Positions 5,191 through 64,000 of a DNA stretch of 64,000 nt are shown piece by piece. The translations under genes and the position numbers were made by a program. Positions within the stretch are counted from its first letter, which is position 1. Each line of letters starts with the position of its first letter. The notes below the pieces were generated by a model. That model did not search any database. It was not told the DNA's origin and saw only the letters and a list, made by a program, of their open reading frames with translations. This DNA comes from Xestospongia bergquistia (taxonomy: Eukaryota > Porifera > Demospongiae > Haplosclerida > Petrosiidae): positions 9,388,101-9,452,100 of the forward strand of contig OZ014413.1 in the NCBI GenBank assembly GCA_963965975.1, written 5' to 3'.

Positions 5191-8100
5191 TCAAAAGGTC
5201 TGTGCATTACGACAGACACCACATCCCAGAGCAAACTCATCTCCCGTGGGAGGGTGCTTCACATGAAGGGGACACTCAGTACCTGACAAAGGTTTAGCAC
5301 GAGGTCCTACTGGACATTGTGGTAACTCTGATTTGGGCATTGAGGTCAGACGTTGGAAATCATCATGACATGGGTTACAAAAGTGGGTGGTACCAAAACA
5401 AAAGTACACTGCCACAGAACAACAATAACGACATTTGTACTCCAAGAAATCCGTCCCATGTTTTGGACATATCTACACAACATAAAAAGAAGACTCATTT
5501 CTATTCTTATAGTATGAGAATGAGCCTGTACAATACATAACAATATATTACCTGAACTTGACCTCCAGTATTAGAACAAGCTGGACAAACTAGTTCAGTA
5601 GGATCATAATCATCACTAGCACCAACTGCTTCAGCACAATGTGCTTCACCACCATAATATGCCTAATGGATGAATAAAACAAGTAGATAGATGAATGGAT
5701 TAACAGATGGATGAATAAATGGTGAATATGAGAGATGATAGAATATTAGATAGACAGACATTAGAATGGACATATAGTCATACCTTGTAACAGACATAGT
5801 ATGCATATTTCCACATTGCATACTCGACAAGTGGTTTCTGATAGAACTTTGAAGAGGGAGAAGTGATAGCTTCACATTTTGATTGGTTCTCATACTCCAA
5901 ATGTAACTGACACTTCCTCTTAACATCATCATAGAGCTCAGAGAGGGGTGTGGCTACATCTGATAGATGAGGATGAGCTATAGGCTTGTCCTGTATAATG
6001 AAGAATGGGTTGATAATTATAGAAAGGACGACCAGAGATGATATAATGAATGAAGGTCATGTTAATGGATTAATATATATAGCTCAAATGGACAGTTACT
6101 ACCATCTTACCTCACAAATGGAGCAGAACATAAACCTGAAGGTAATCCTTGGTCCAGACCACTTCTTACTGAGAGCATTATGACAACATTGGTAATGGAA
6201 AACATGACCACATTCTAACTGAATAGCTGGAGCACATGACAGTCCCTCTGTATAACATATCATACACATATCGTCAGCATCTTGTTTTAATGGAGGGTGG
6301 GTGGAGTCATCTTGAGTGCCACACCCATGAAGACATGGGAGACACTTCTTCTCTCCTTTCACACCACAACAGAGATGACCACAAGACAGCGACTTATCGC
6401 AGACAGACTTAGCTCTCTCTTGACACTCAGGATCAGCACAAACATTACCAATAGCTAACAAACCAGTATTACTGGTAGTACCACAGAACCTACAAGCACC
6501 TTTACCTCCACCTGTAATATAGATACAGTGTTGTCATGGATACTGTTGCTATGCTATTATTAATCAATGTGAATTGGTTGCTATAACAAAATGGGGTCTT
6601 TTGGACATACATGTATGTTGCTATGGTGATTATCACTGAATATTAATATTGTATTCCTTACCTCCTACAGTGTCTTTGAATTCAACCATTCCTTTCAAAG
6701 TACGAGAGTCAGCTAATGCCATAGTCCAATAGAGTTTGATACGACCACACCCTTCATGAAGATCCACTTTAACAGCCTCTTCTTCTTCTTTGAACACCTA
6801 GAGAGAGATGGAGGTCATTATGACTCACATTAGTGAAGTTCTCACCTGTCGTTGATGGTTATCAGTACGTTTGTGATAATGTAGTACACGATCACATTCT
6901 CCACATAAGTTACCACAATGATCACATAATATAAGAGCTTTAGTTTCACCATCATCATGATTATCACATAGAGGCTAAAAGGACAAGAATGACAAAATTA
7001 TAAATAATTCTCTCTTCCTCAAATATACCTTTGTTTGAGGTTTGCCATCTTGTCCTAGCCATTGTCCTGAGGAGAGAGCATCGGCATGTTCTTCATCAAT
7101 GACACACAGAGCAGCTAAACAGAGCCAGAACTGTCAAGTGTGTGTGTGTGTGTGAGAGAGAGAGAAAGAGAGAGAGTGTGTTGTTACATGTACATATCAT
7201 ATCAACTACTACTAACAGTATGGGAGTACATTCCAGGATCAGCATTACAAGCTTCTTCATTAATCTTTGTCAAATGTAATACAGCTTGTCCAATTGCTGA
7301 CTTAGCATAATCCTTCCATTGACCTTTAAGTACAGACTATAAAGAGATAGGATATAATATAATATAATTCATAGATCATTAGACACTACTTATTAAATAT
7401 TTGTATACACTCTATATAATTACAAAGGTAAAGGTAAAGGTCACTTATCGATAACAATATAGAATACCACACAAGTTCTTCAAAATAATATTAGTCTTAA
7501 AAGACTACAGTAGGGGTTCACATTGAGAATGACTGTTGTTTAGTGGTATTCTAATAATGATATATGTCATCAACCTAACCTGGGTGTGGCATTATAGTTG
7601 AAAAGTTTTTCATACTTCTTTATTTGGTATCTCTTCTTTAACTAGTAAAAGTATTTTTGACACTTTCTGAGCTTTTCTGCAAGTATTTGGTAATAATATT
7701 ACAAATAACACATGATGTTACAACACTGTGGAATACTAATAATACCTTATATGGGATTTTTGGTTTGTGACTTTTCTAAATTACTACCACTCTAGCTTTT
7801 AATAAAATTTGAGGACTTGCAAGACATTTCTTGAATGGTACATCTCAAATGTTACAAACCATTCCTCTCTAGCTCACTTTTAACCATTGTTATAATATTG
7901 AGTTAGTATTCATTCTCAACACAAACAAGGGTATACCTGCTACAGTGTATTACTACCCAGTACCAAATATATACATGTACATGTACACATGTTAATGTTT
8001 ATACCTTCATCATATCTTTGAGTAATTTAACTATCTCTATAGCTACTTCTTTTTCAATGGATCCTTGTAGATACCATCGTTGACCTCTAACGTGAGCCTC

Positions 8101-8590
8101 TCCTACAACAGGTTTGGGATCTTTAAGAGTTGCTAGTGTCACTGCAGCAACAGCAGTATCACCAGTGAGTTTCTATAGTAACAATGATATATACAACATG
8201 TAGATATAATGTATCAATGATATGTGTAATGTTTGTATCATATACATGTACAATGTTATAAAACTATTATTGACTAGGTATAGCTGAACTACACTCATTT
8301 AAACACTATTGAACAACTAAACTGATAACATCAGTGGACATGTGTATACAAAGAGGTGGTTCTGATCTGTGAATGGACTTATTTACCTGCAATATATTTG
8401 AGCTCCTCCCCTTTACTTTAACTTGTACAGAGAGTGCTTTAGCAATAACAGCTAGCAGACAGTCTAGGAGGCCAAGTTGATTGATAGTAGCAGCTGCCTC
8501 ACCTATAGCACTGTAACCCAGAGGTGAACCTATTCCTAACACCTCCCACTTTTTCAAACTGTTTACATTGTGTATCAACTTTATAATCAT
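5191..8590 (-). CDS. Copy A: stand-alone MYCBP2 C-terminal module (RING-Cys-relay E3), 5'-truncated but open
   Basis: Ten exons with GT/AG borders are readable: 8387-8590, 8005-8172, 7217-7336, 7029-7130, 6846-6974, 6662-6797, 6111-6511, 5784-5990, 5552-5662 and 5191-5472. They join without a stop into 619 residues plus TAG. Similarity to the full gene ends near 8527. Above that, unrelated sequence supplies an in-frame ATG at 8590 (23 or so new residues), with an in-frame TGA at 8606-8608 further upstream. The product keeps the B-box-like finger, RING and TC domain including the two relay cysteines. All three coding indels against the full gene are multiples of three: minus 9 near 8495, plus 3 near 5825, minus 9 at 5784. 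The last removes a Cys of the TC domain. Transcription is unproven, so an unusually well-preserved pseudogene is the alternative. Confidence 0.6.
7139..7180. repeat. (GT)n/(GA)n microsatellite in an intron of copy A
   Basis: A (GT)n run followed by a GA-rich run lies between the exons at 7029-7130 and 7217-7336. Related tracts of other lengths sit at 18480-18512 in copy B and 40602-40660 in the full gene, so the tract predates the duplications. Confidence 0.85.
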
Positions 8591-16543: not shown

Positions 16544-19500
16544 CTAAAAGGTCTGTGCATTACGACAGACACCACATCCCAGAGCAAACTCATCTCCCGT
16601 GGGAGGGTGCTTCACATGAAGGGGACACTCAGTACCTGATAAAGGTTTAGCACGAGGTCCTACTGGACATTGTGGTAGCTCTGATTTGGGCATTGAGGTC
16701 AGACGTTGGAAATCATCGTGACATGGATTACAAAAGTGGGTGGTACCAAAACAAAAGTATACAGCCACAGAACAACAATAACGACATTTGTATTCCAAGA
16801 AATCTGTCCCATGCTTTGGACATATCTACAAAATATTAAAAAGAAGACTCATTTCCATTCTTATAGTAATGAGAATGAGCCTGTACATAACAATATATTA
16901 CCTGAACTTGACCTCCAGTATTAGAACAAGCTGGACAAACTAGTTCAGTAGGATCATAATCATCACTAGCACCAACTGCTTCAGCACAATGTGCTTCACC
17001 ACCATAATATGCCTAATGGATGAATAAAACAAATAGATAGATAAATGGATTAACAGATGGATGAATAAATGGTGAATATGAGAGATGATAGAATATTAAA
17101 TAGACAGACATTAGAATGGACATATAGTCTTACCTTCTTACACTTGTAACAGACATAGTATGCATATTTCCACATTGCATACTCAAGTGGTTTCTGATAG
17201 AACTTTGAAGAGGGAGAAGTGATAGCTTCACATTTTGATTGGTTCTCATACTCCAAACGTAACTGACACTTCCTCTTAACATCATCATAGAGCTCAGAGA
17301 GGGGTGTGGCTACATCTGATAGATGAGGATGAGCTATAGGCTTGTCCTGTATAATGAAAAATGGGTTGATAATTATAGAATGGATGACCAGAGATGATAT
17401 AATGAATGAAGGTCATGTTAATGGATTAATACATATAGCTCAAATGGACAGTTGCTACCATCTTACCTCACAAATGGAGCAGAACATAAACCTGAAAGTA
17501 ATCCTTGGTCCAGACCACTTCTTACTGAGAGCATTATGACAACATTGATAATGGAAAGCATGACCACATTCTAACTGAATAGCTGGAGCACATGACAGTC
17601 CCTCTGTATAACATATCATACACATATCGTCAGCATCTTGTTTTAATGGAGGGTGGGTGGAGTCATCTTGAGTGCCACACCCATGAAGACATGGGAGACA
17701 CTTCTTCTCTCCTTTCACACCACAACAGAGATGACCACAAGACAGAGACTTATCACAGACAGACTTAGCTCTCTCTTGACACTCAGGATCAGCACAAACA
17801 TTACCAATAGCTAATAGACCAGTATTACTGGTAGTACCACAGAACCTACAAGCACCTTTACCTCCACCTGTAATATAGATACAGTGTTGTCATGGATACT
17901 GTTGCTATGCTATTATCAATCAATGTGAATTGGTTGCTATAACAAAATGGGGTCTTTTAGACATACACATGATTATCACTGAATATAATATTGTATTTCC
18001 TACCTCCTACACTGTCTTTGAATTCAACCATTCCTTTCAAAGTACGAGAGTCAGCTAATGCCATAGTCCAATAGAGTTTGATACGACCACACCCTTCATG
18101 AAGATCAACTTTAACAGCCTCTTCTTCTTCTTTGAACACCTAGAGAGAGATGGAGGTCATTATGACTCACATTAGTTAAGTTCTAACTTGTCGTTGATGG
18201 TTATCAGTACGTTTGTGATAATGTAGTACACGATCACATTCTCCACACAAGTTACCACAATGATCACATAATATAAGAGCTTTAGTTTCACCATCATCAT
18301 GATTATCACATAGAGGCTAAAAGGAAAATAATGACAATGTTATAAATAATTCTCTCTTCCTCAAATATACCTTTGTTTGAGGTTTGCCATCTTGTCCTAG
18401 CCATTGTCCTGAGGAGAGAGCATCAGCATGTTCTTCATCAATGACACACAGAGCAGCTAAACAGAGCCAGAACTGTCAAGTGTGTGTGTGTGTGTGTGAG
18501 AGAGAGAGGGATGTTACATGTACATATCATATCAACTACTACTAACAGTATGGGAGTACATTCCAGGATCAGCATTACGAGCTTCTTCATTTACTTTGTT
18601 AAATGTAATACAGCTTGTCCAATTGCTGACTTAGCATAATCCTTCCATTGACCTTTAAGTACAGACTATAAAGAGATAGGATATAATATAATATAATTCA
18701 TAGATCATTAGACACTACTTATTAAATATTTGTATACTCTATAGATTTATAAATAAAGTGCCAAGGTCACTATGAATAACAATACCACACAAGTTATTCA
18801 AAACTTAAAAAGTTCAAAAGTTAGTCTTAAGGATTACATTGGAGTTCACATTGAGAATGACTGTGGTTTAGTGCTATTCTAATAATGATCTATGTCATCA
18901 ACCTGTGTGGCATCTTAGTTGAAACATTTTTTACTTTAAGTAGTAAAAGTATTTTTGATAATTTCTGAACCTTTCTGCAACCTTTTGGTAATGATATTGC
19001 AAATTACACATGACATCAGAATACTGTGGAATTCATTTTATATGGGATTTTTGGTTTGTGACTTTCCTAAGTTACTAGCACTTTAGCTTTTGATAAATGT
19101 AAGGTGTTTCTTGAATGGTACAAACTATTTCTCTCTAGCTCATTTCTAACAAGTTACAACACAGAGTTAGTATTTATTCTCAACACAAACAAGGGTAAAC
19201 CTGCTACAGTGTACTACTAGCCAGTACCAAATATATACATGTACATGTACACATGTTAATGTTTATACCTTCATCATATCTTTGAGTAATTTAACTATCT
19301 CTATAGCTACTTCTTGTTCAATGGATCCTTGTAGATACCAACGTTGACCTCTAACGTGAGCCTCTCCTACAACAGGTTTGGGATCTTTAAGAGTTGCTAG
19401 TGTCACTGCAGCCACAGCAGTATCACCAGTGAGTTTCTATAGTAACAATGATATATACAACATGTAGATATAATGTATCAATGATATGTGTAATGTTTGT

Positions 19501-20795
19501 ATCATATACATGTACAAATAATGCTCTAGTGACTAAATATAGCAGAACTACACTCATTTAAACACTATTGAACAACTAAATTGATGACATTAGTGGACAT
19601 GTGTATATAAAGAGGTGGTTCTGATCTGTGAATGGACTTATTTACCTGCAATATATTTGAGCCTTGCCCCTTTACTTTAACTTGTACAGAGAGTGCTTTA
19701 GCAATAACAGCTAGCAGACAGTCTAGGAGGCCAAGTTGATTGATAGTAGCAGCTGAATTAACTGCCTCAGCTATAGCACTGTAACCAAGAGGTGGTAGGA
19801 CTGTCACATTAGTCATTGTAGCAAAGTCTCTTGGTTTTATATATGGAAGAATACGTCGTAATAGAGAACACACCTAATGGAAATTGAGAGAACAACATAC
19901 AATAATTGTACATGTAATAATAGTATATGTACATGTACATGTTGTAATGGTATTTGTAATAATGGTATATGTACATGTACATGTTGTAATGGTATTTGTA
20001 ATAATGGTATATGTACATGTACATGTTGTAATGGTATTTGTAATAATGATATGTACATGTACATGTTGTAATGGTATTTGTAATAATGGTATATGTACAT
20101 GTACATGTTGTAATGGTATTTGTAATAATGGTATATGTACATGTACATGTTGTAATGGTATTTGTAATAATGCTATGTGTAGTAATGGTATATGTATATG
20201 TGATGTGATTAAATGGGATTGTTAATAGCACAATAGATATTACTAAATAAATGATCAACTAAATACAGCTGTAACTAGATGGATAGTTAAATATATAGAG
20301 TGACTATTCAGTATTGCAGTATATCTGTTTTCTTACTTGTAATTTAATTCTACCAGAAGCAGTGTGTAAAAGAGAGACAAGATCTTGTATTAACTGGCTC
20401 TGTCCAGCCAAATAATTACATCCCAGTTCACTCTGACTCAGACCCTCTAACATAGTCAATAATTCATAACAATATGTATCAGGCCCTTTACTACGACTGC
20501 CAACTCCCTCAAGAGTACTGGGATCATGGCTAGCTTGGCGAGCAGGAGGCACTTTTGGTGCTGTTGGTTCCTTCAGACTCTTCTCCCATTCTTCTTTCAT
20601 ACGAGATGCTTCAGTGTGAACAGAGTCCATGATATGTTGACAGACTGCCTTTTGTAGACCAGAGAGACGACTCTTATTGAAGAGAATATTAGCCATTGAA
20701 GATGTTTCTTCTTCTGTTTGTTCTAAGTTAGAATCAGTCTCTTCTTCTTCTCCTTCTTTGGGTTGAGTGGTGGACAATAGGAGACCACCAAATAC
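16544..20795 (-). pseudogene. Copy B: MYCBP2 3' exons downstream of the DOC domain, frame broken
   Basis: Eleven exons align with the full gene: 20337-20795, 19646-19873, 19269-19436, 18547-18665, 18371-18472, 18188-18316, 18004-18139, 17467-17867, 17134-17346, 16902-17012 and 16544-16825. All have the same length as in the full gene except 18547-18665, which is one base short and so meets TAA at 18591-18593. A TAA at 20924-20926 in the exon above ends the frame earlier still. The RING and TC exons (16544-17867) stay open and keep the catalytic cysteines. Whether anything starts translation at them is unknown. Confidence 0.8.
19915..20200. repeat. 42-bp minisatellite in an intron of copy B (about 6-7 units)
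   Basis: The unit contains the self-complementary run 'tgtacatgtacatg' followed by 'ttgtaatggtatttgtaata'. The same intron has about 4-5 units in copy C (27125-27320) and about 3 in the full gene (42070-42215). Being free of stops in several frames, it yields spurious long open frames on both strands. Confidence 0.9.
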
Positions 20796-20923
20796 CTAAA
20801 TAGATAGAAGGATAGATAGACAGACAAACAGACAGATAGGTAAGTGAATAAAATTATATGAATGAATGGATGGTTGCCACTGGATGAATGAATGATGTAA
20901 CAGTTGTCAATTCTCTTTACCTG

Positions 20924-21767
20924 TTAAGTCAATAATCTAAACAATCTAAGTGCCTCAGTTTCACAATCTTTTTGCATAGCAACAGCAGTAGTTGGACAAG
21001 CATTAGGAGCAGGTTTATCAGGTCGACCCAGTATTATAACTTGTCTAGCTCGTATGTTATTTTGAACTCCACGCAATTCAAAACGTACAACTTTACACTG
21101 TTCATCAACTTCAGGTACTATAAGAGTCTTCCAACCAACATGACTAGTAGCTAATTTACACTATAAAGAGAATTTAAATTAGATGGAAATAACACATTAA
21201 TAGCATCAAAAAACTGAGGTATTTTATTGTAAACAGTAGTGTTGTATTTCTAACCTTATCAACTTCTTTCAGGCTGTCTTCATCAGGTCCAACAAAGAGA
21301 GATAACTGTTCAACACGTTGCTATATGAGATAGAAATATTAAATATTTATCTTATGTCTCTCTCTTTGTCCACTATTCCTTTGTTTTAAATATAAATCCT
21401 TCTATCCATCAACTACATATCTATTCATCCATTCTTACCCCAGAGTCCTTCTGATTGTCAATATGAATGGAGGCTGCAAATATCTTGATTACTTTATCAT
21501 AAGTTACAGTAATAGAACAAGGTTTACCACGTGGTTCATCACGAGATTCCCAAAAGGTTTCAGTAGATCTGTCAGTTAGACTATTGCTCATAGCATCATT
21601 AGAGGAGACCTTGACTTTACCATCAGATAATACATTGATCATTAACTCCACTAATGTGTCCTGTAATACAATGTTCATTTACTTCTTGTTAAGTATTCTA
21701 TCTCTCTACTAGCACATGTATTTCTAAATCTATCCATCATCTGATAGTCATCTATAGATTGTACATC

Positions 21768-21814
<47 letters not shown>

Positions 21815-21996
21815 TCAGTCAAATATCTTACCATTTGTTTTGTAGGTTGTTTCTCTCCCTCGACTTCTTCCATACCAGAGAGAGCTTCACTGATGTTAGC
21901 AAACACTTGACTTTGAAGCAGAAATGAGTGATCTTGAGGATGAAAGTTGAGACACGAGCTATAGAACCAACAGGTAACTAGAGAGAGAGAGAGTGA

Positions 21997-22043
<47 letters not shown>

Positions 22044-23920
22044 CAACTACTTGGTAATGACCATTTTGACTGGCAAATATCAAAGCAGTCCAACCTTCTT
22101 GGACTTGAAGATTAAGATCAGCATTTTCTTTTAGTAGAAGCTCAACAACTTGGTAATGACCATTTTCACTGGCCAATGTCAATGCAGTTGATCCTCTTTG
22201 TGTTTGAAGATTAAGATCAACATTTTCTTTGAGAAGAAGCTCAACTACTTGGTAATGACCATTTTGACTAGCAAACATTAAAGCAGTCCAACCTTTTTGG
22301 TTTTGAAGATTAAGATCAACATTTTCTTTGAGAAGAAGCTCAACTACTTGGTAATGACCATTTTGACTAGCAAACATTAAAGCAGTCCCACCTTTTTGGT
22401 TTTGAAGATTAGGATCCTGTTTTAAGTTAGGATTAACTTGAGCTTTCAATAATAGATCTACTATGATGTACAGGTTACTTTCACAGGCTTTCATTAATGC
22501 AGTGTTACCATTGTTATCATGAATGTCAACATTAGCTCCTGCTGATATTAGTGTCTGTACAACTTGTTCATGTTCACCAATAGTAGCTAACATTAGTGCT
22601 GTTTGTCCGACTTCATTCTGGTAGTCAATATTGGCTCCTAACTCCAGTAGTATAGTGACATCATTATTATGACCAGCTTGTGCCACTTGAAGAAGTGATT
22701 TTTCAATTGTAACAGGTTGATCTTCTAATATAATGGGATGGTCATTGATGATTATTTCATAGATACCAACTTGATACATGAACTCTGTTTTCTCAGCTGC
22801 CATAACTATGAGAGATTGTGATTGTGAGAGAGGTGCCAGGAATCTAATACAAATTGATCCTGGCTCAATGTGAATGTGGGTTAAAAAGTGTTTCTTTGTT
22901 GGAAATAAGTAATTGATAAGTTTATAGAAATTTTTTAAAGTCATTTGTCCACATCTACCATGTAGTTTGATGATGACCTCACATGATGTTTCTGTGACCT
23001 CTTGTTTTGGTAGCAGTGCTTCTTCAATAGCTGTCTTGATATATTGTAGTTGAGATGATTCTGTAAATGCTCCAAGCAACTTTGAATACTCTTCTAGTTC
23101 AGATTGAAGAACATCTCCTGGTAGAAACTGCTCAACCAAGTTCTCTATCAGCTCACAATTGAGAAAGCAATAATGTGATCTAGCTTTATGAAATAATTCT
23201 TGAATGGTTGTCACATTACTTGCTAGTTTTGTTTCTTCTACATACTCTTCGACAAATAGAGCAATAACTTCTAGCTGACATGTACCAGTGTTAACAGCTT
23301 CAGCTAAACATGTTCTGACATTTGTTATAATCGATGTAAATTTTTTATGAAGCTGTTGTAAATCGATAGCTACTTGATCCTTAGAACTCATTTTTATTAT
23401 CTTTTGTGAGTTACATTCTTTTTTCTCATCTTCTGATACAATACTGCAGAATTCCTTCCCATCATTTACTGTCACAGCAGTGTCAGTTAATGTGTCATCT
23501 TGACTGTATGTACCTATAACAGAGTAAGATAATCACATGAATATCTCCTGACATCATTATACACTCACTTTGATAGTGATCTACTGGTGGTATGGTGGTA
23601 ATAAGGTTTTCTTGTACTTTTGAGACTAGATAGTGTTCATTAGCTTTAGATAGGGCAACAATTACTTTATCCCAGGTAGCATAAGAGTCAACTTTGAGCC
23701 ATTCTGAGAAGAAAGCTAATTTTCGAAGATCAGTTGATGAGTAATCATTTTCAATCTTCTTTATCATTGTAGATGATATCTTTGGTAGAAAAATAGCAAA
23801 TTTTTGCCACTCTACTAATAGTTCAAGTAGTTCCATTAGTTCAGACTCAGTAGGTCTGTTAGACAGTCTAGGACTATCTACTGGTAGAGTAGTAGTACAT
23901 CTTGTAGGATTGTCAGACAT
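20924..23920 (-). CDS. Chimeric gene: DEATH-ankyrin N-terminus fused in frame to the MYCBP2 DOC region (predicted 852 aa)
   Basis: Exon 1 is 23569-23920 (ATG at 23920, DEATH domain). Exon 2 is 21832-23513. It holds the conserved linker and 6-7 ankyrin repeats, then crosses a (GA)n tract at 21980-22041, read as a Ser-Leu run, and runs into a MYCBP2 exon in its native frame. MYCBP2 exons 21439-21660, 21255-21320 and 20921-21160 follow with intact splice sites and matching phase, and encode the DOC domain. The frame ends at TAA 20924-20926, two codons before the end of that exon. Lengths sum to 853 codons. DOC folds (as in APC10) bind partners of ubiquitin ligases, so the product could link DEATH/ankyrin contacts to such a complex. 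That is inference. The stop lies upstream of further splice junctions, so the mRNA might be unstable unless it is polyadenylated early. Confidence 0.6.
21773..21812. repeat. (CT)n microsatellite
   Basis: It sits in the intron beside the donor site of the fusion exon (21832). A shorter version lies at 43782-43801 in the full gene. Confidence 0.9.
21980..22041. repeat. (GA)n tract at the ankyrin/MYCBP2 junction
   Basis: To its left is MYCBP2 sequence up to the exon acceptor and the start of its GA-rich intron. To its right is an ankyrin repeat cut mid-unit. The full gene has GA repeat at the same intron position (43990-44011), so the join most likely occurred within this simple repeat. Confidence 0.85.
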
Positions 23921-24523
23921 ATTGGAAATAACTATATAGCTATAGCTGTTAGCTTCTTGATAAACCTGAACACTTTAAAAATATCCTTATATGGTCATAA
24001 TTTCTAAATAACTTACAGTATTCTAAAATTAGAATATCCTTATATAGTTGTTATTATCATAACTGTGTGTGTGCTGTAGTACTATACACTATATGCATTT
24101 ATATATCTTCTGTTCATAGCTAAATTGATAAATACCACATATATTATATATTAGTATTGTTCATAAGCACAAATAAATTCATATATTAATTAATTAATGT
24201 CACATATAATTATTATAACACATTAATAATGTACACTGTTATGTAACAGGATACTATCACTATATTTAGTTCTATTATCATAATACTAATGTTAGTATCA
24301 ACTAGTAAGTGTATTAATAATCAATAATAATATTGTCCTCATTATTGTTAATATAATAAACCTTTGCACAAAATAACAATAGAGGTATTACTAAAATATC
24401 ACTATATCAGATATATTATTATTATTATTATTATATACTAACAAAATGTAAATCACTAAATAATTAATAGTTCAAATGTTCCTAATATTAAACTACTAGT
24501 AGTTCAGTAGTTCAAGGACTTCT
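23921..24523 (-). promoter_or_regulatory. Upstream region of the chimeric gene with CArG boxes; 3' flank of MYCBP2 copy C
   Basis: Same spacer as in the other units. Perfect CArG box at 23985-23994 and near match at 24038-24047, at the conserved distance from the ATG at 23920. If it drives the other ankyrin genes, it should also drive the chimera. Confidence 0.45.
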
Positions 24524-27124
24524 TTAAAAGGTCTGTGCATTACGACAGACACCACATCCCAGAGCAAACTCATCTCCTGTGGGAGGGTGCTTCACATGAA
24601 TGGGACACTCAGTACCTGACAAAGGTTTAGCACGAGGTCCTACTGGACATTGTGGTAGCTCTGATTTGGGCATAGACGTCAGACGTTGGAAATCATCGTG
24701 ACATGGGTTACAAAAGTGAGTGGTACCAAAACAAAAGTACACAGCCACAGAACAACAATAACGACATTTGTACTCCAAGAAATCCGTCCCATGTTTTGGA
24801 CATATCTACACATTATTAAAAAGAAGACTCATTCCTATTCTTATAGTATGAGAATGAGCCTGTACAATACATAACTATATATTACCTGAACTTGACCTCC
24901 AGTATTAGAACAAGCTGGACAAACTAGTTCAGTAGGATCATAATCATCACTAGCACCAACTGCTTCAGCACAATGTGCTTCACCACCATAATATGCCTAA
25001 TGGATGAATAAAACAAATAGATAGATGAATGGATTAACAGATGGATGAATAAATGGTGAATATGAGAGATGATAGAATATTAGATAGACAGACATTAGAA
25101 TGGACATATAGTCTTACCTTCTTACACTTGTAACAGACATAGTATGCATATTTCCACATTGCATACTCAAGTGGTTTCTGATAGAACTTTGACGAGGGAG
25201 AAGTGATAGCTTCACATTTTGATTGGTTCTCATACTCCAAACGTAACTGACACTTCCTCTTAACATCGTCATAGAGCTCAGAGAGGGGTGTGGCTACATC
25301 TGAGAGATGAGGATGAGCAATAGGCTTGTCCTGTATAATGAAAAATGGGTTGATAATTATAGAAAGGACGACCAGAGATGATATAATGAATGAAGGTCAT
25401 GTTAATGGATTAATACATATAGCTCAAATGGACAGTTGCTACCATCTTACCTCACAAATGGAGCAGAACATAAACCTGAAGGTAATCCTTGGTCCAGACC
25501 ACTTCTTACTGAGAGCATTATGACAACATTGATAATGGAAAACATGACCACATTCTAACTGAATAGCTGGAGCACATGACAGTCCCTCTGTATAACATAT
25601 CATACACATATCGTCAGCATCTTGTTTTAATGGAGGGTGGGTGGAGTCATCTTGAGTGCCACACCCATGAAGACATGGGAGACACTTCTTCTCTCCTTTC
25701 ACACCACAACAGAGATGACCACAAGACAGGGACTTATCACAGACAGACTTAGCTCTCTCTTGACACTCAGGATCAGCACAAACATTACCAATAGCTAACA
25801 GACCAGTATTACTGGTAGTACCACAGACTATATAAAGAGATAGGATAATATAATTCATAGATCATTAGACACTACTTATTAACTATTTATATACTCTATA
25901 TAATTACAAAGGTAAAAGTCACTTATCAATAACAATATAGAATACCACACAAGTTCTTCAAAATAGTATTAGTCTTAAAAGACTACAGTAGGGGTTCACA
26001 TTGAGAATGACTGTGGTTTAGTGGTATTCTAATAATGATATATGTCATCAACCTAACCTGGGTGTGGCATTATAGTTGAAAAGTTTTTCACACTTCTTTA
26101 TTTGGTATCTCTTCTTTAACTAGTAAAAGTATTTTTGATACTTTCTGAACTTTTCTGCAAGTATTTGGTAATAATATTACAAATAACACATGATGTCACA
26201 ACACTGTGGAATGCTAATAATACCATTCACTTTATATGGGATTTTTGGTTTGTGACTTTTCTAAATTGCTACCACTCTAGATTTTAATAAAATTTGAGGA
26301 CTTGCAAGACATTTCTTGAATGGTACATCTCAAATGTTACAAACCATTTCTTTCTAGTTCACTTTCAACCATTGTTATAATATTGAGTTAGTATTCATTC
26401 TCAACACAAACAGTATACCAGCTACAATCTATTACTAGCCAGTACCAAATATATACATGTACATGTACACATGTTAATGTTTATACCTTCATCATATCTT
26501 TGAGTAATTTAACTATCTCTATAGCTACTTCTTGTTCAATGGATCCTTGTAGATACCATCGTTGACCTCTAACATGAGCCTCTCCTACAACAGGTTTGGG
26601 ATCTTTAAGAGTTGCTAGTGTCACTGCAGCAACAGCAGTATCACCAGTGAGTTTCTATAGTAACAATGATATATACAACATGTAGATATAATGTATCAAT
26701 GATATGTGTAATGTTTGTATCATATACATGTACAAATAATGCTCTAGTGACTAAATATAGCAGAACTACACTCATTTAAACACTATTGAACAACTAAACT
26801 GATGACATTAGTGTACATGTGTATATAAAGAGGTGGTTCTGGTCTGTGAATGGACTTATTTACCTGCAATATATTTGAGCCTCGCCCCTTTACTTTAACT
26901 TGTACAGAGAGTGCTTTAGTAATAACAGCTAGCAGACAGTCTAGGAGGCCAAGTTGATTGATAGTATCAGCTGAATTAACTGCCTCAGCTATAGCACTGT
27001 AACCCAGAGGTGGTAGGACTGTCACATTAGTCATTATAGCAAAGTCTCTTGGTTTAATATATGGAAGAATACGTCTTAATAGAGAACACACCTAATGGAA
27101 ATTGAGAGAACAACATACAATAAT

Positions 27125-27320
27125 AGTACATGTAATAATAATATGTACATATACATGTTGTAATGGTATTTGTAATAATGGTATATGTACATGTACATGT
27201 TGTAATGGTATTTATAATAATGGTATATGTACATGTACATGTTGTAATGGCATTTGTAGTAATGGTATATGTACATGTACATGTTGTAATGGCATTTGTA
27301 ATAATGGTATATGTACATGT
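27125..27320. repeat. 42-bp minisatellite in an intron of copy C (about 4-5 units)
   Basis: Same unit and intron as at 19915-20200 with fewer copies. Confidence 0.88.
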
Positions 27321-29055
27321 GATGTGATTAAATGGGATTGTTAATAGCACAATAGATATTGCTAACTAAATGATCAACTAAATACAGCTGTAACTAGATG
27401 GATAGTTAAATATATAGAGTGACTATTCAGTATTGCAGTATATCTGTTTTCTTACTTGTAATTTAATTCTACCAGAAGCAGTGTGTAAAAGAGAGACAAG
27501 ATCTTGTATTAACTGGCTCTGTCCAGCCAAATAATTACATCCCAGTTCACCCTGACTCAGACCCTCTAACATAGTCAATAATTCATAACAATATGTATCA
27601 GGCCCTTTACTACGACTACCAACTCCCTCAAGGGTACTGGGATCATGGCTAGCTTGGCAAGCAGGAGGCACCTTTGGTGCTGTTGGTTCCTTGAGACTCT
27701 TCTCCCATTCTTCTTTCATACGAGATGCTTCAGTGTGAACAGAGTCCATGATATGTTGACAGACTGCCTTTTGTAGACCAGAGAGACGACTCTTATTGAA
27801 GAGAATATTAGCCATTGAAGATGTTTCTTCTTCTGTTTGTTCTAAGTTAGAATCAGTCTCTTCTTCTTCTCCTTCTTTGGGTTGAGTGGTGGACAATAGG
27901 AGACCACCAAATACCTAAATAGATAGAAGGATAGATAGACAGACAAACAGACAGATAGGTAAGTGAATAAAATTATATGAGTGAATGGATGGTTGTCATT
28001 GGATTACTGAATGATGTAACAGTTGTCAATTCTCTTTACCTGTTAAGTCAATAATCTAAACAATCTAAGTGCCTCAGTTTCACAATCTTTTTGCATAGCA
28101 ACAGCAGTAGTTGGACAAGCATTAGGAGCAGGTTTATCAGGTCGACCCAGAATTATAACTTGTCTAGCTCGTATGTTATTTTGAACTCCACGCAATTCAA
28201 AACGTACAACTTTACACTGTTCATCAACTTCAGGTACTATAAGAGTCTTCCAACCAGCATGACTAGTAGCTAATTTACACTATAAAGAGAATTTAAAGTA
28301 GATGGAAATAACACATTAATAGCATCAAAAAACTGAGGTATTTTATTGTAAACAGTAGTGTTGTATTTCTAACCTTATCAACTTCTTTCAGGCTGTCTTC
28401 ATCAGGTCCAACAAAGAGAGATAACTGTTCAACACGTTGCTATATGAGATAGAAATATTAAGTACTTATCTATGTCTCTCTCTTTGTCCTTTGTTTTAAA
28501 TATAAATCCCTCCATCCATCAACTACATATCTATCCATCTATTCATCCATTCTTACCCCAGAGTCCTTCTGATTGTCAATATGAATGGAGGCTGCAAATA
28601 TCTTGATTACTTTATCATAAGTCACAGTAATAGAACGAGGTTTACCACGCGGTTCATCACGAGATTCCCAGAAGGTTTCAGTAGATCCATCAGTTAGACT
28701 ATTGCTCATAGCATCATTAGAGGAGACCTTGACTTTACCATCAGATAATACATTGGTCATTAACTTCACTAATGTGTCCTGTAATACAAATGTTCATTTA
28801 CTTGTTGTTAAGTATTCTGTCGCTCTACTAGCACATGTATTTCTAAATCTATTCATCATCTGATTGTCATCCATATATTGTACATCTAATCTCCATCTCT
28901 CTCTCTCTCTCCCCTTCTCTCCATAAGTTTTCCTCCTTCAGACAAATATCTTACCACTTGTTTTGTAGGTTGTTTCTCTCCCTCAACCTCTTCCATAACA
29001 GAGAGAGCTTCACTGATGTTAGCAAACACTTGACTTTGAAGTAGAAACGAGTGAT

Positions 29056-29057
<2 letters not shown>

Positions 29058-29096
<39 letters not shown>
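29058..29096. repeat. (GA)n tract at a deletion junction in copy C
   Basis: The exon reading from 28955 stops here. The sequence corresponding to about 43930-44015 of the full gene, including the rest of that exon, is replaced by GA repeat. Confidence 0.8.
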
Positions 29097-29100
<4 letters not shown>

Positions 29101-30184
29101 ATGAACAAGAATTTGTTGAGTACCAGCACCATCAAGACCAGTAAGTGGATTTCTGCCAAGACTCCAATCCTTTGAGTCCTAACAAAATATACATAAACAA
29201 ACAATTATTATTATTGTTGTTGTTATTATTAATAATAATATTATTATTATTATGTATAATGTACAAGTAAATATATAAATAAATGTACTCTCTAATCCTA
29301 TAAGTACATGTCATCTATATTTATACTTAAGTAATCCTTTAGGTACTGAAAGGTCTTGAATTTGTTGTATTAACCATCCCAGAAACTAGAGAGAGAGAGA
29401 GAGAGAGTAGAGTAACAAACTGTTCACACATGTATTTATTAACATATACTAGTATTAAACATGAGACACTGTAAGTAGAATAGAACGGGATAGTTTAGTG
29501 AATGTTATACTTACCCATTCTCTTTCCATAAGAGCCTGGTTTTTTCTTGACAACACGTTTAATCTCTTCAGGTTCTATGTCTTCAAGGAAATCATCATTC
29601 TTAGCTTTACTGTAAGAGAGTGCATAGCCTTCTCTCTTCATGCATTTCAACTCAATTAATGAAGTATTGGATAACTTAATCCAACAACCAGCACCATTCT
29701 CTGTCTATAGGGAGAGAGATCACATGATTATCACATGACATTGTGAGGTATCAAGATGATAAATATCAAGTTAACATACAACAACTTTTCATATGACTAT
29801 CACATGACTTACTTTCTCTGAGTACAACAAGACCATTCCAGGTTTGATCAGTGCAATAGAAGGAACTGTAAAAGATGGGCGACCATGTACTCTCAGACCA
29901 GTTGCCTTCAATCCTGTAAACATTTTTAACAACTACAATAACAGTCTCCTCCTCTTGTTTGTCATCTAATGGTGGCTGTGAAACTTTGTCACTCTCCCTT
30001 TCTGTCTCCTCAGGTGAGGTCTCCAAAGATAATACATTATATGCTCCTATTAAGACAGAAGATATATAAATCATATAACATGTAGTGGGAGGGGCTGTAA
30101 TTACATATACATGTAAATCAATGTATATACAGCATGTAGTGGGAGGGGCCACCAATCTCAGCACAATGTATGGTTTGGAAAATG

Positions 30185-31327: not shown

Positions 31328-34300
31328 TTATTTGTTTACAATATTCTTTGTTGTAACATTATGTTGTTTTCTTTGTGTCCTTTTCAACTTCTTTCTTGAA
31401 ATAGGTAATGGTAGCTGGATCAATGTAGAGCGATGTCGTTGTCGAGGCTGTTCCTGTTCATAAATTATTGATTTGTTATTTCTGATCTCTTTCTTTTTAG
31501 TATCTTTAAAAGTATGAAATGGTTGTTTGATAGATTTTATTAAATGATATTGGAAAGACTGCTTTAGAGACGAGGAGTGGATAGTTGAGTGTGGAAGGAC
31601 ATCTTGTTCAACTACAGACTCTGTTGTCTTTATACTTTGTAGTTGTTTATTAGGTTCCTCTGTCTGTTGATCAGGTATTAAAATATTAGAGCTGGTAATT
31701 TCTATTGGTTGGTTTATTGAATGGTCTAATCTTTTACAAGAACGACTACTAGGATCAATGTACTTTTCTAATAAATGAGCTATTTCAATATGACCATTCT
31801 GACTAGCTATTGTTGATGCACTTTGTGTTTGAAGACTAAGATCAGCATTTTCTTTTAGTAGAAGCTCAACAACTTGGTAATGACCATCTTGACTAGCAAA
31901 CATTAAAGCAGTCCCACCTTCTTGGTTTTGAAGATTAGGATCAGCATTTTCGTTTAGTAGAAGCTCAACTACTTGGTAATGACCATTTTGACTGGCAAAT
32001 ATTAAAGCAGTCCCACCTTCTTGGTCTTGAAGATTAGGATCAGCATTTTCTTTTAGTAGAAGCTCAACAACTTGGTAATGACCATTTTCACTGGCCAATG
32101 TCAATGCGGTTGATCCTCTTTGTGTTTGAAGATTAAGATCAACATTTTCTTTGATAAGAAGCTCAACTACTTGGTAATGACCATTTTGACTGGCAAATGT
32201 CAATGCGGTTGATCCTCTTTGTGTTTGAAGATTAGGATCAGCATTTTCTTTTAGTAGAAGCTCAACAACTTGGTAATGACCATTTTCACTGGCCAATGTC
32301 AATGCGGTTGATCCTCTTTGTGTTTGAAGATTAAGATCAACATTTTCTTTGAGAAGAAGCTCAACTACTTGGTAATGACCATTTTGACTAGCAATCATTA
32401 AAGCAGTAACACCTTCTTCTTGTTGAAGATTAGGATCAGCATTTTCTTTTAGTAGAAGCTCAACTACTTGGTAATGACCATTTTGACTGGCAAATATTAA
32501 AGCAGTCCAACCTTCTTGGTTTTGAAGATTGGGATCAGCATTTTCTTTTAGTAGAAGCTCAACTACTTGGTAATGACCATTTTCACTGGCCAATGTCAAT
32601 GCGGTTGATCCTCTTTGTGTTTGAAGATTAGGATCAGCATTTTCTTTTAGTAGAAGCTCAACTACTTGGTAATGACCATTTTGACTGGCAAATATTAAAG
32701 CAGTCCAACCTTCTTGGTTTTGAAGATTGGGATCAGCATTTTCTTTTAGTAGAAGCTCAACTACTTGGTAATGACCATTTTCACTGGCCAATGTCAATGC
32801 GGTTGATCCTCTTTTTGTTTGAAGATTAAGATCAACATTTTCTTTGAGAAGAAGCTCAACTACTTGGTAATGACCATCTTGACTAGCAAACATTAAAGCA
32901 GTCCCACCTTCTTGGTTTTGAAGATTAGGATCAGCATTTTCTTTTAGTAGAAGCTCAACTACTTGGTAATGACCATTTTGACTAGCAATCATTAAACCAG
33001 TAAAACCTTCTTGGTCTTGAAGATTAGGATCAGCATTTTCTTTTAGTAGAAGCTCAACAACTTGGTAATGACCATTTTCACTGGCCAATGTCAATGCGGT
33101 TGATCCTCTTTGTGTTTGAAGATTAAGATCAACATTTTCTTTGATAACAAGCTCAACTACTTGGTAATGACCATTTTGACTGGCAAATATTAAAGCAGTC
33201 CAACCTTCTTGGTCTTGAAGATTAGGATCAGCATTTTCTTTTAGTAGAAGCTCAACTACTTGGTAATGACCATTTTGACTGGCAAATATTAAAGCAGTCC
33301 AACCTTCTTGGTCTTGAAGATTGGGATCAGCATTTTCTTTTAGTAGAAGCTCAACTACTTGGTAATGACCATTTTCACTGGCCAAACTCAATGCGGTTGA
33401 TCCTCTTTGTGTTTGAAGATTAAGATCAACATTTTCTTTGATAAGAAGCTCAACTACTTGGTAATGACCATTTTGACTAGCAATCATTAAAGCAGTAACA
33501 CCTTCTTCTTGTTGAAGATTAGGATCAGCATTTTCTTTTAGTAGAAGCTCAACTACTTGGTAATGACCATTTTGACTGGCAAATATTAAAGCAGTCCAAC
33601 CTTCTTGGTTTTGAAGATTGGGATCAGCATTTTCTTTTAGTAGAAGCTCAACTACTTGGTAATGACCATTTTCACTGGCCAATGTCAATGCGGTTGATCC
33701 TCTTTGTGTTTGAAGATTAGGATCAGCATTTTCTTTTAGTAGAAGCTCAACTACTTGGTAATGACCATTTTCACTGGCCAATCTCAATGCGGTTGATCCT
33801 CTTTTTGTTTGAAGATTAAGATCAACATTTTCTTTGAGAAGAAGCTCAACTACTTGGTAATGACCATCTTGACTAGCAAACATTAAAGCAGTCCCACCTT
33901 CTTGGTTTTGAAGATTAGGATCAGCATTTTCTTTTAGTAGAAGCTCAACTACTTGGTAATGACCATTTTGACTAGCAATCATTAAACCAGTAAAACCTTC
34001 TTGGTCTTGAAGATTAGGATCAGCATTTTCTTTTAGTAGAAGCTCAACAACTTGGTAATGACCATTTTCACTGGCCAATGTCAATGCGGTTGATCCTCTT
34101 TGTGTTTGAAGATTAAGATCAACATTTTCTTTGATAACAAGCTCAACTACTTGGTAATGACCATTTTGACTGGCAAATATTAAAGCAGTCCAACCTTCTT
34201 GGTCTTGAAGATTAGGATCAGCATTTTCTTTTAGTAGAAGCTCAACTACTTGGTAATGACCATTTTGACTGGCAAATATTAAAGCAGTCCAACCTTCTTG

Positions 34301-35346
34301 GTCTTGAAGATTGGGATCAGCATTTTCTTTTAGTAGAAGCTCAACTACTTGGTAATGACCATTTTCACTGGCCAATGTCAATGCGGTTGATCCTCTTTGT
34401 GTTTGAAGATTAAGATCAACATTTTCTTTGAGAAGAAGCTCAACTACTTGGTAATGACCATCTTGACTAGCAAACATTAAAGCAGTCCCACCTTCTTGGT
34501 TTTGAAGATTAGGATCAGCATTTTCTTTTAGTAGAAGCTCAACTACTTGGTAATGACCATTTTGACTAGCAATCATTAAACCAGTAAAACCTTCTTGGTC
34601 TTGAAGATTAGGATCAGCATTTTCTTTTAGTAGAAGCTCAACTACTTGGTAATGACCATTTTCACTGGCCAATGTCAATGCGGTTGATCCTCTTTTTGTT
34701 TGAAGATTAAGATCAACATTTTCTTTGAGAAGAAGCTCAAGTACTTGGTAATGACCATCTTGACTGGCAAATATTAAAGCAGTCCAACCTTCTTGGTCTT
34801 GAAGATTAGGATCAGCATTTTCTTTTAGTAGAAGCTCAACAACTTGGTAATGACCATTTTGACTAGCAATCATTAAACCAGTAAAACCTTCTTGGTCTTG
34901 AAGATTAGGATCAGCATTTTCTTTTAGTAGAAGCTCAACAACTTGGTAATGACCATTTTGACTAGCAATCATTAAACCAGTAAAACCTTCTTGGTCTTGA
35001 AGATTAGGATCAGCATTTTCTTTTAGTAGAAGCTCAACAACTTGGTAATGACCATTTTGACTGGCAAATATTAAAGCAGTCCAACCTTCTTGGTTTTGAA
35101 GATTGGGATCAGCATTTTCTTTTAGTAGAAGCTCAACTACTTGGTAATGACCATTTTCACTGGCCAATGTCAATGCGGTTGATCCTCTTTGTGTTTGAAG
35201 ATTAGGATCAGCATTTTCTTTTAGTAGAAGCTCAACTACTTGGTAATGACCATTTTGACTGGCAAATATTAAAGCAGTCACACTTTCTTGGTTTTGAAGA
35301 TTAGGATCAGCATTTTCTTTTAGTAGAAGCTCAACAACTTGGTAAT
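31328..35346 (-). pseudogene. 3' part of DEATH-ankyrin gene D, out of frame with its 5' part
   Basis: One long open frame encodes about 36 almost identical 33-residue ankyrin repeats plus the basic tail shared with gene A. It is cut off from the DEATH exon by a 26-base deletion at about 35343-35347, which shifts the frame. It would be silent unless translated internally, or unless the deletion is an assembly or sequencing error in this very repetitive region. The length and openness of the frame argue that the break is recent or artificial. Confidence 0.7.
32500..34700 (-). repeat. Higher-order ankyrin repeats (10- and 11-unit blocks)
   Basis: The variant phrase 'tttgataacaagctc' recurs at about 33141 and 34131, exactly 990 bp (10 x 99) apart. 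The phrase with two RGSTAL-type units around 32582 recurs about 1089 bp (11 x 99) further on. The DNA flanking these points is almost identical, showing multi-unit unequal exchange. Confidence 0.75.
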
Positions 35347-38067
35347 GCGGTTGATCCTCTTTGTGTTTGAAGATTAAGATCAACATTTTCTTTGATAAGA
35401 AGCTCAACTACTTGGTAATGACCATTTTGACTAGCAATCATTAAAGCAGTAACACCTTCTTCTTGTTGAAGATTAGGATCAGCATTTTCTTTTAGTAGAA
35501 GCTGAACTACTTGGTAATGACCATTTTGACTGGCAAATATTAAAGCAGTCCAACCTTCTTGGTCTTGAAGATTAGGATCAGCATTTTCTTTTAGTAGAAG
35601 CTCAACTACTTGGTAATGACCATTTTGACTGGCAAATATTAAAGCATCTTGGTTTTGAAGATTGGGATCAGCATTTTCTTTTAGTAGAAGCTCAACTACT
35701 TGGTAATGACCATTTTGACTAGCAATCATTAAACCAGTAAAACCTTCTTGGTCTTGAAGATTAGGATCAGCATTTTCTTTTAGTAGAAGCTCAACAACTT
35801 GGTAATGACCATTTTCACTGGCCAATGTCAATGCGGTTGATCCTCTTTGTGTTTGAAGATTAAGATCAACATTTTCTTTGATAACAAGCTCAACTACTTG
35901 GTAATGACCATTTTGACTGGCAAATATTAAAGCAGTCCAACCTTCTTGGTCTTGAAGATTAGGATCAGCATTTTCTTTTAGTAGAAGCTCAACTACTTGG
36001 TAATGACCATTTTGACTGGCAAATATTAAAGCAGTCCCACCTTCTTGGTTTTGAAGATTAGGATCAGCATTTTCTTTTAGTAGAAGCTCAACTACTTGGT
36101 AATGACCATTTTGACTAGCAATCATTAAACCAGTAAAACCTTCTTGGTCTTGAAGATTAGGATCAGCATTTTCTTTTAGTAGAAGCTCAACAACTTGGTA
36201 ATGACCATTTTCACTGGCCAATGTCAATGCGGTTGATCCTCTTTTTGTTTGAAGATTAAGATCAACATTTTCTTTGAGAAGAAGCTCAACTACTTGGTAA
36301 TGACCATCTTGACTAGCAAACGTTAAAGCAGTCACACTTTCTTGGTTTTGAAGATTAGGATCAGCATTTTCGTTTAGTAGAAGCTCAACTACTTGGTAAT
36401 GACCATTTTGACTAGCAATCATTAAAGCAGTCCAACCTTCTTGGTCTTGAAGATTAGGATTAGCATTTTCCTTTAGTAGAAGCTCAACAACTTGGTAATG
36501 GCCATTCTCACTGGCATACATTAGTGCTGTTTCTCCACATTCATTCTGGGAGTCAATATTGGCTCCTAACTCCAGTAGTATTGTAACAATATTATTATTA
36601 CCAGCTTTTGCTGCTTGAAGTAGTGATTGTTCAAAGGTAAATGTTATATCCTCTTCTTCCATTAAGATGGGTTGCTCATTTATTACTATTTTGATAATAC
36701 CAACTTGATGCATAAACTCTGTTTTTTCAGTAGCCAGTTGTATGAGAAGTTGTGATTGTGAGCGAGGTGCAAGAAAACTAACACAAATACATCCTTGTTT
36801 GATATAAATGTGACTAAAAACATTGTCCATCATAGGAAAAAGGTAATTTATAAGCTTACGAAAAATGTCTAATGTCATTCTCCCACATCTTCTTTGTAAT
36901 TTGATCTCTACTTTACAAGTCGTCTCAGTAATTTCATGATTTGGTATCAGTGCTTCTTCAATAGCACTCTGGATGTGTTGTAGTTCAGCTGATTTATCAA
37001 ATACTTCAAGTTCTTCCAAATACTTGGCAAATTCAGTTTGTAGGTCACTTTCAGGAAGGAATGTATTAACAATGCTCTCTATTAATTCACAGTTACTAAG
37101 AAAGCAGTAGTAAGGCTCTATCTCAACAAACAATTCATCAATGGTTGTAACTTCAATCAATTTGTCCAGTTCCTTTTCTTCAGATAGCCAGGGTAGTAAT
37201 TTAATATGTCTTGCTATGTCAATTAATTTACATTTATTAATTTTTATCATCTCTTCAAGATGACTTACAATTTTACATACTAAAGATGTAAATTTGTCTA
37301 CAAGTCTTTTCAGCTCTTTTGCAACTTGATCTTTAGAACTAATTTCTATTATTTTCTTGTTCATTTTGATGTGTTCATCTGCTACTGTAACACTGGATTG
37401 ATTGTCATCTTTTTTCAGTGCACTATCAATTAATTTAACATCTTTACTGTGTGTACCTAAATAATACAGATGAAGACACTCATAACCATCTTTAATAAAT
37501 CCAATGCACTCACCTTGATTGGAATATACTGGTTTTATTTCAGTTTCACTATGGCTCCCTAGGGTTTGACAATGCTGTGCTGAATGAATATTACCTTGTT
37601 TGTATTGTTTACTTTCTTTATCATCAGTTTCAGTTAATGTGTCATCTTGACTGTATGTACCTATAACAGAGTAAGATACTAATATAAATATATCTTGACA
37701 TCATTATATACTCACCTTGATAGTGATCTACTAGTGGTATGGTAGTAATAAGGTTTTCCTGTACTTTTGAGACTAGATAGTGTTCATTAGCTTTTGATAG
37801 CGCAACAATTACTTTATCCCAGGTAGCATAAGAGTCAACTCTGAGCCACTTTGAGAAGAGAGCTAATTTTCGAAGATCAGTTGATGAGTAATCATTTTCA
37901 ATCTTCTTTATCATTGTAGATGATATCTTTGGTAGAAAAATAGCAAATTTTTGCCACTCTACTAATGGTTCAAGTAGTTCCATTAGTTCAGACTCAGTAG
38001 GTCTGTTAGACAGTCTAGAACTATCTACTGGTAGAGTAGTAGTACATCTTGTAGGATTGTCAGACAT
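35331..38067 (-). CDS. DEATH-ankyrin gene D, 5' part (874 aa, then frameshift)
   Basis: Three exons: 37716-38067 (ATG at 38067, DEATH domain), 37514-37660 and 35331-37456. All borders are GT/AG and the phases match. The 147-base second exon is a polar spacer not used in the other genes, and the linker in exon 3 is clearly divergent while keeping the shared motifs ('YYCFLSNCELIES', 'SFLAPRSQSQ'). About 13 ankyrin repeats follow; one unit near 35645 has lost 12 bases in frame. The frame then shifts at the 26-base deletion and stops at 35331. As it stands the product is a truncated DEATH-ankyrin protein. It is the copy next to the full MYCBP2 gene, probably at the original locus. Confidence 0.75.
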
Positions 38068-38667
38068 AGTGGAAATAACTATATAGCTATAACTGTTAGC
38101 TTCTTGATAAACCCGAACACTTTAAAAATATCCTTATATGGTCATAATTTCTAAATAACTCTACAGTATTCTAAAATTAGAATATCCTTATATAGTTGTT
38201 ATTATCATAACTGTGTGTGTGCTGTAGTACTATACACTATATGGCCAATTCTCATCTGTTTTATAGCTAAAGTGATAAATATCACATATATTATATATTA
38301 GTATTGTTCATAAACACATATAAATTCATATATTAATTAATGTCACATATAACACATTAATAATGTACACTGTTATGTAACAGGATACTATCACTATATT
38401 TAGTTCTATTATCATAATACTAATGTTAGTATCAACTAGTAAGTGTATTACTAATCAATAATAATATTGTCCTCATTATTGTTAATATAATAGTTTCCTT
38501 TGCACAAAATAACAATAGAGATATTACTAAAATATCACTATATCAGATATATTATTATTATTATTATTATATATAATAATAAAATGTAATCACTAAATAG
38601 TTAATAGCTCAAATGTTCCTAATATTAAACTACTAGTTCAATAAACAAACTTAGTTCACAGACTCCT
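38068..38667 (-). promoter_or_regulatory. Upstream region of ankyrin D with CArG boxes; 3' flank of MYCBP2
   Basis: Perfect CArG box at 38132-38141 and near match at 38186-38195. The spacer between MYCBP2 stop and ankyrin ATG is only about 600 bp, so the MYCBP2 terminator and the ankyrin promoter must both lie within it. Confidence 0.45.

Positions 38668-64000
<25,333 letters not shown>

Follow-up and report, generated by a model that had tools for sequence, protein, structure and literature searches.

The window analysed here is the whole 64,000-nucleotide stretch of Xestospongia bergquistia DNA at C3:9388101-9452100, and the genome-wide searches covered the 146.46-Mb, 21-contig assembly to which it belongs. 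The minus strand of the window carries the intact 3′ end of a MYCBP2 gene (38668..44221, hereafter P), for which the exon model comprises 16 exons (E1-E16), is open to its stop and has AG and GT at every internal exon boundary. Downstream of P, DEATH-ankyrin genes alternate with partial copies of MYCBP2, all of the latter also on the minus strand, and a further copy is located on contig C4. Copy B (24524..29178) is cut in E1 and E2, contains a TAA in E5 and has lost E9-E12 and the start of E13 by deletion. Copy C (about 22000-16544) keeps its splice sites through E6-E16 (16544..20795); compared with the intact P, it lacks E1, E2 is shortened by a 22-bp deletion, E5 contains a TAA, and the loss of 1 bp in E9 (18665-18547) creates AAG TAA. 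Measured against the intact gene, the MYCBP2 fragment of copy C thus carries disabling lesions and is a pseudogene. Copy A (5191..8527) starts inside E7, does not include the DOC exons and is truncated only, with E8-E16 free of stops and frameshifts; the generalization that every MYCBP2 copy has a frameshift or a stop was therefore rejected, as the changes in E14 of copy A are in frame (9 nt lost, 3 nt gained) and its splice donor is usable. In the C4 copy, E1 is truncated, E5 contains two TGA codons and E13 has a 7-bp deletion; the match to P extends only to about the E14 donor. An apparent alignment of E15-E16 in C4 is not real homology, since the match ends at P 39236, and these exons were left out of the substitution comparison. 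At L009 (C4:5603500-5612500), together with L012 and L013, this dispersed copy matches window positions 50767-39236 in pieces at 90-99% identity.

The frame under study begins in the DEATH-ankyrin gene located between copies B and C and ends within copy C. Rebuilt as a spliced minus-strand frame from 23920 to 20921, it encodes 852 residues and ends at a TAA (20926-20924), giving 853 codons in the exons 23920-23569, 23513-21832, 21660-21439, 21320-21255 and 21160-20921, with AG at each acceptor, GT at each donor and phase 0 for the three DOC exons. Exon 1 (23569..23920) is the Death-domain exon, with an ATG, a GT donor and a Pfam Death match below the cut-off. The ankyrin-gene part of exon 2 (22042..23513) contains a helical region, a TRADD-N-like region (about 22819-22923, the extent of the Pfam match) and ankyrin repeats, as indicated by Pfam, comparison with paralogues and a structure model; relative to the paralogues, the remaining repeat array and the C-terminal tail are missing. 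The ankyrin repeat is joined directly to a slightly interrupted (CT)n tract of 62 bp (21980..22041), which is the polypyrimidine tract preceding MYCBP2 exon E2, and this is followed by the remnant of E2 (21832..21977), which retains its acceptor AG and measures 146 nt compared with 168 nt in P. The DOC exons are E3 (21439..21660), with two copy-specific changes, G>R and R>C, E4 (21255..21320), with the same donor GTTAGA as in P, and E5 (20921..21160), which ends in TAA CAG where P has TCA in place of TAA at 20926-20924. In Pfam searches with the fused protein, ankyrin repeats were found, and ANAPC10/DOC was matched at 23.8 bits (cut-off 21.0). An alternative transcript with exon 1 spliced directly to E2 or E3 was considered and rejected, because exon 1 has 352 nt and the frame is lost.

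These observations bear out much of what the earlier note had described, namely a DEATH-ankyrin front end joined in frame to the DOC exons of MYCBP2 through a (CT)n tract, with splice sites and phases intact and a TAA at 20924. That TAA, however, is a nonsense mutation of the TCA found in P and C4, and the MYCBP2 exons E6-E16 continue beyond it to 16544. The sum of exactly 853 codons was rejected as evidence of design, because the exons are copied from P. An ankyrin-type promoter region had also been placed ahead of the gene, and the usual 5′ region is indeed present: between the stop of copy B and the ATG of the ankyrin gene, positions 23921..24523 (minus strand) are 88-92% identical over 569-608 bp to the upstream regions of three paralogous genes, and this segment is the presumed promoter and 5′ UTR.

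The manner in which the frame is open differs from that first proposed. The frame does run without a stop into the MYCBP2 exon, although not in the reading frame of that exon, as the first 22 nt of E2 are read out of frame, as VTCWFYSS. The native E2 frame is entered only past the 22-bp deletion, which follows these 22 nt (between 21956 and 21955) and is found in copy C and not in P or C4; in copy B, the corresponding part of E2 is gone. Followed back through the (CT)n tract, the frame native to E2 runs into the TAG at the acceptor. With the deleted E2 of copy C, one of the three possible join phases is open, compared with none of the three with the undeleted E2 of P. The fusion is thus open only because copy C carries the frameshifting 22-bp deletion, which within MYCBP2 itself is a frameshift, and the open frame depends on two events. 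If both were random, a fitting join phase and the right class of deletion would coincide in roughly 1/9 of cases by our own estimate (1/3 x 1/3). The two events may be coincidental, or the deletion may have been retained for opening the frame; among the arguments for an expressed chimera this coincidence is the strongest, yet it is modest. The absence of a stop through the repeat, by contrast, was rejected as evidence and says little, since a pure CT tract cannot contain a stop in any frame.

The front end belongs to a large family. At least 106 protein matches to the Death exon were found in the genome, and the family is represented on C3, C5 and C14, among other contigs. The Death match of the fusion scores 17.5 bits against a Pfam cut-off of 22.6, and among the paralogous first-exon ORFs one of three exceeds this cut-off (22.8 bits), the other two scoring 20.2 and 21.5. 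Similarly, the Pfam TRADD-like_N match is sub-threshold in the fusion (E 0.003) and in four of five exon-2 ORFs, and the fifth, that of copy A, has no match, though it is 97% identical there. A structure model based on 12 sequences (mean pLDDT 65) has the order strand-helix-strand-strand-helix at residues 176-240; in a PDB fold search, no match reached E <= 0.001, and alpha/beta ferredoxin-like domains were among the weak listings. On the basis of the sub-threshold matches, the order of strands and helices and these weak listings, the front end is tentatively assigned to the Death-like, TRADD-N and ankyrin expansion described in the sponge Amphimedon, with 357 TRADD-N proteins; that family is reported to have Death-like and TRADD-N front ends and C-termini that vary and often evolve fast (PMC8195603). 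The likeness to this expansion (NCOA6 clade), as described in that section, lies in the order of Death, helical region, TRADD-N-like region and ankyrin repeats and in the many fast-changing family members (PMC8195603), with the caveat that the TRADD-N and Death matches of the fusion are below the Pfam cut-offs. Unlike in the members of that family, most of the repeats and the C-terminal tail are gone from the fusion, and a DOC segment takes their place. The ankyrin half of the fusion contains no stop; its nearest copy is that of A, with 1096 of 1140 sites identical, and in the non-repeat region the two differ by 17 synonymous and 27 nonsynonymous changes (omega 0.43; other pairs 0.36-0.61). 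The DEATH-ankyrin gene adjoining P (31328-38121) looks frameshifted, because it falls into two ORFs that overlap (35331-37700 and 31328-35407), and stops at 6635 and 6176 interrupt the gene in L011.

The C-terminal part resembles MYCBP2, an E3 ligase of the PHR family, in that E2-E5 of the fusion are MYCBP2 exons and a DOC/APC10-like domain is present. It is unlike MYCBP2 in that the RING exon lies downstream of the fused frame, which stops in E5, leaving no C-terminal RING in frame, and in that the RCC1 and PHR parts are absent. The proposal that the gene had gained a ubiquitin-ligase partner-binding fold is upheld for the presence of the DOC domain, although the function implied goes too far: RING is not in frame, and passages of a PHR review place FSN-1/FBXO45 binding in FBD1, with no mention in them of a DOC domain (PMC4806438). 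With the DOC part as query, protein searches found a single relative; among the 7992 most word-sharing candidates scored in one of these searches, the nearest protein was a MYCBP2 fragment from a JGI metagenome (69% identical).

At the stop site in E5, P and C4 have TCA, and B and C have TAA; since the TAA is common to B and C and not found in P or C4, it was not made with the junction, and it is older than the junction or independent of it, gene conversion between B and C also being possible. The TAA is located 3 nt before the E5 donor, in an inner exon with the spliceable exons E6-E16 beyond it, a position that would be premature in a transcript running through them. These exons keep AG and GT in copy C, and a transcript spliced as in P would contain 11 exon junctions after the TAA. 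In a motif scan from the TAA to the E6 acceptor, no AATAAA or ATTAAA was found; the first ATTAAA past the TAA is at 20348, inside E6. A transcript in which exon junctions follow the stop codon is expected to undergo nonsense-mediated decay. With 11 junctions after the TAA, the fusion transcript is predicted to be mostly removed by this route.

Substitutions in the MYCBP2 exons are consistent with a recent loss of function. Between P and C, there are 6 synonymous and 6 nonsynonymous differences in E3-E5 (omega 0.28) and 31 synonymous and 3 nonsynonymous differences in E6-E16 (omega 0.03). From these low values, the divergence arose mostly under constraint, and copy C was therefore functional, or an allele, until recently; this would fit copies that were taken from divergent alleles of a living gene and died only recently. 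The changes unique to C, namely 4 nonsynonymous and 0 synonymous in E2-E5, 5 and 2 in E2-E8, and 2 and 3 in E9-E14 (no excess of nonsynonymous changes), amount to 7 nonsynonymous and 5 synonymous in E2-E14. The probability of 7 or fewer nonsynonymous changes among 12 is 0.11 under neutrality, and that of 7 or more is 0.017 under an omega of 0.1. The changes unique to C thus appear to be free of constraint, which is weak evidence against function, the weakness being due to the few changes and the young copy; furthermore, too little time may have passed since the fusion for selection to be visible. Exon E6 is identical in P (42824-42366) and C (20795-20337) over 459 of 459 bp, unlike the neighbouring stretches, which differ by several per cent, and this suggests a possible conversion or recombination tract.

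Taken together, the locus is quite probably a young fusion pseudogene produced by a deletion in a tandem duplication. In the proposed course of events, a tandem array of units, each consisting of a MYCBP2 3′ end and a DEATH-ankyrin gene, would have undergone a deletion that connected the unit-B ankyrin gene, at a point in its repeat array, with the (CT)n tract preceding E2 of copy C, possibly helped by short CT homology; the MYCBP2 fragment of copy C would already have been broken when it was joined. The 5′ region of the ankyrin gene may start a transcript, which would be spliced through E3-E16 and, with its premature stop and 11 junctions, would mostly be lost to nonsense-mediated decay. The outcome would be a loss-of-function allele of one member of the DEATH-TRADD-N-ankyrin family, from which traces of truncated DEATH-ankyrin-DOC protein might still arise. 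Directly observed are both parent structures, the junction with its open frame, the TAA in common with copy B, the 22-bp deletion and the exons further downstream; the fusion is perhaps transcribed and probably degraded, and most likely leaves no lasting protein. Against a pseudogene stands the modest argument that 852 open codons called for a suitable join phase together with a deletion that shifts the frame, and the splice sites are kept; in addition, the ankyrin half has no stop and an omega similar to that of its family.

The alternative nearest to the original proposal is a young expressed chimeric gene, in which the front end gained DOC as a new C-terminus within a family known to vary its C-termini. 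The 852-codon open frame, the conserved splice sites, the 5′ region shared with the paralogues and a DOC match above the Pfam cut-off would all accord with such a gene, as would the variable C-termini described behind Death-like and TRADD-N front ends in Amphimedon (PMC8195603); however, DOC is not among the C-termini given in section 10 of that paper, and among the eight homologues with the front-end region, ankyrin Pfam domains occur in every one and ANAPC10 in none. In addition, the stop lies in an inner exon and is common to copy B, no synonymous change occurs among the copy-specific changes in E2-E5, and the G>R and R>C changes in E3 fall at positions kept as G and R in P, B, C4 and the MYCBP2 relative P0001. 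The claim that a chimeric gene was born here as a unit is not supported: its stop is older than the junction or independent of it, shared with copy B and placed where decay is expected, two further lesions are present in E2 and E9, and the unique changes appear free of constraint. Support for a new functional gene is weak, and an expressed chimera of this kind is considered unlikely. That the DEATH-TRADD-N front end is expressed with DOC and escapes decay, for example through a transcript end before E6 or weak decay, would be decidedly improbable. An assembly error, a collapse or misjoin at the CT tract, is also considered unlikely. The locus is a tandem duplication, and GA/TC tracts have been associated with HiFi dropouts and gaps, although the passages concerned deal with far longer tracts (PMC10234299) than the interrupted one of 62 bp found here; moreover, the window contains no N, both sides of the junction differ from every other copy seen (the 22-bp deletion and own substitutions on one side, 1096/1140 in the ankyrin part on the other), and the DOC search gave no orphan half, P, B, C and C4 being the only copies at 94% identity or more. 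A 453-bp query across the junction matched at full length only to itself among the matches listed for the assembly. Finally, the functional part could be the retained E6-E16 of copy C, as a short RING protein, and not the fusion. The omega of 0.03 against P and the identical E6 would be compatible with this; however, the 1-bp deletion creates a TAA in E9, and the identity of E6 fits a recent conversion tract or an allelic origin equally well. A short RING protein is very improbable.

The proposed origin has a parallel in the chimeric genes of Drosophila yakuba made by tandem duplication and deletion (PMC5460883). As in the cases described in the relevant passages of that study, neighbouring genes would have been joined in a tandem duplication, with the 5′ region of one and exons of the other (PMC5460883); unlike in those cases, the acquired exons come from a broken copy and the frame ends at an inherited nonsense codon. 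Among the papers listed first in literature searches (6 of 124 and 6 of 151), neither a MYCBP2-ankyrin fusion nor a sponge chimeric gene was found, which does not prove absence. If the fusion were expressed and escaped decay, the locus would show a segmental duplication in the act of replacing the C-terminus of a DEATH-TRADD-N immune-type protein with a DOC domain, and would illustrate how the diverse C-termini of this family come about. One concrete route by which this diversity could begin would be the repeated duplication of a block beside MYCBP2, followed by deletions through dinucleotide tracts. For annotation, the locus is a warning, as automatic gene prediction would probably report a clean 'DEATH-ankyrin-DOC' gene of 852 residues despite three lesions and the position of the stop, both of which argue for a pseudogene.

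The same CT tract is the break site in two copies, B and C. In copy B (28955-29178), the (CT)n tract runs directly into the middle of E2, and the acceptor is lost. Elsewhere in the assembly, a search with the DOC exons gave 66 DNA matches, of which the 62 other than P, B, C and C4 are located on contig C9 between 2.3 and 6.0 Mb, at 70-90% identity and in 34 clusters (including L020, L021 and L026-L028). In all three of the C9 stretches that were read (27 kb), the MYCBP2 pieces are interrupted by in-frame stops, and the C9 matches represent a MYCBP2 block that is old and amplified. DNA-level matches to the first part of the Death exon also occur in six places on C9 (2359326, 3329269, 3512522, 4188669, 4716835 and 5459148), and all of these remnants except that at 5459148 follow a DOC match, on the same strand, at a distance of 2.4-2.8 kb downstream. 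The proximity of these remnants to DOC fragments suggests that the MYCBP2 3′ end and the Death exon may have been copied together as a block before, and that the block has since decayed.
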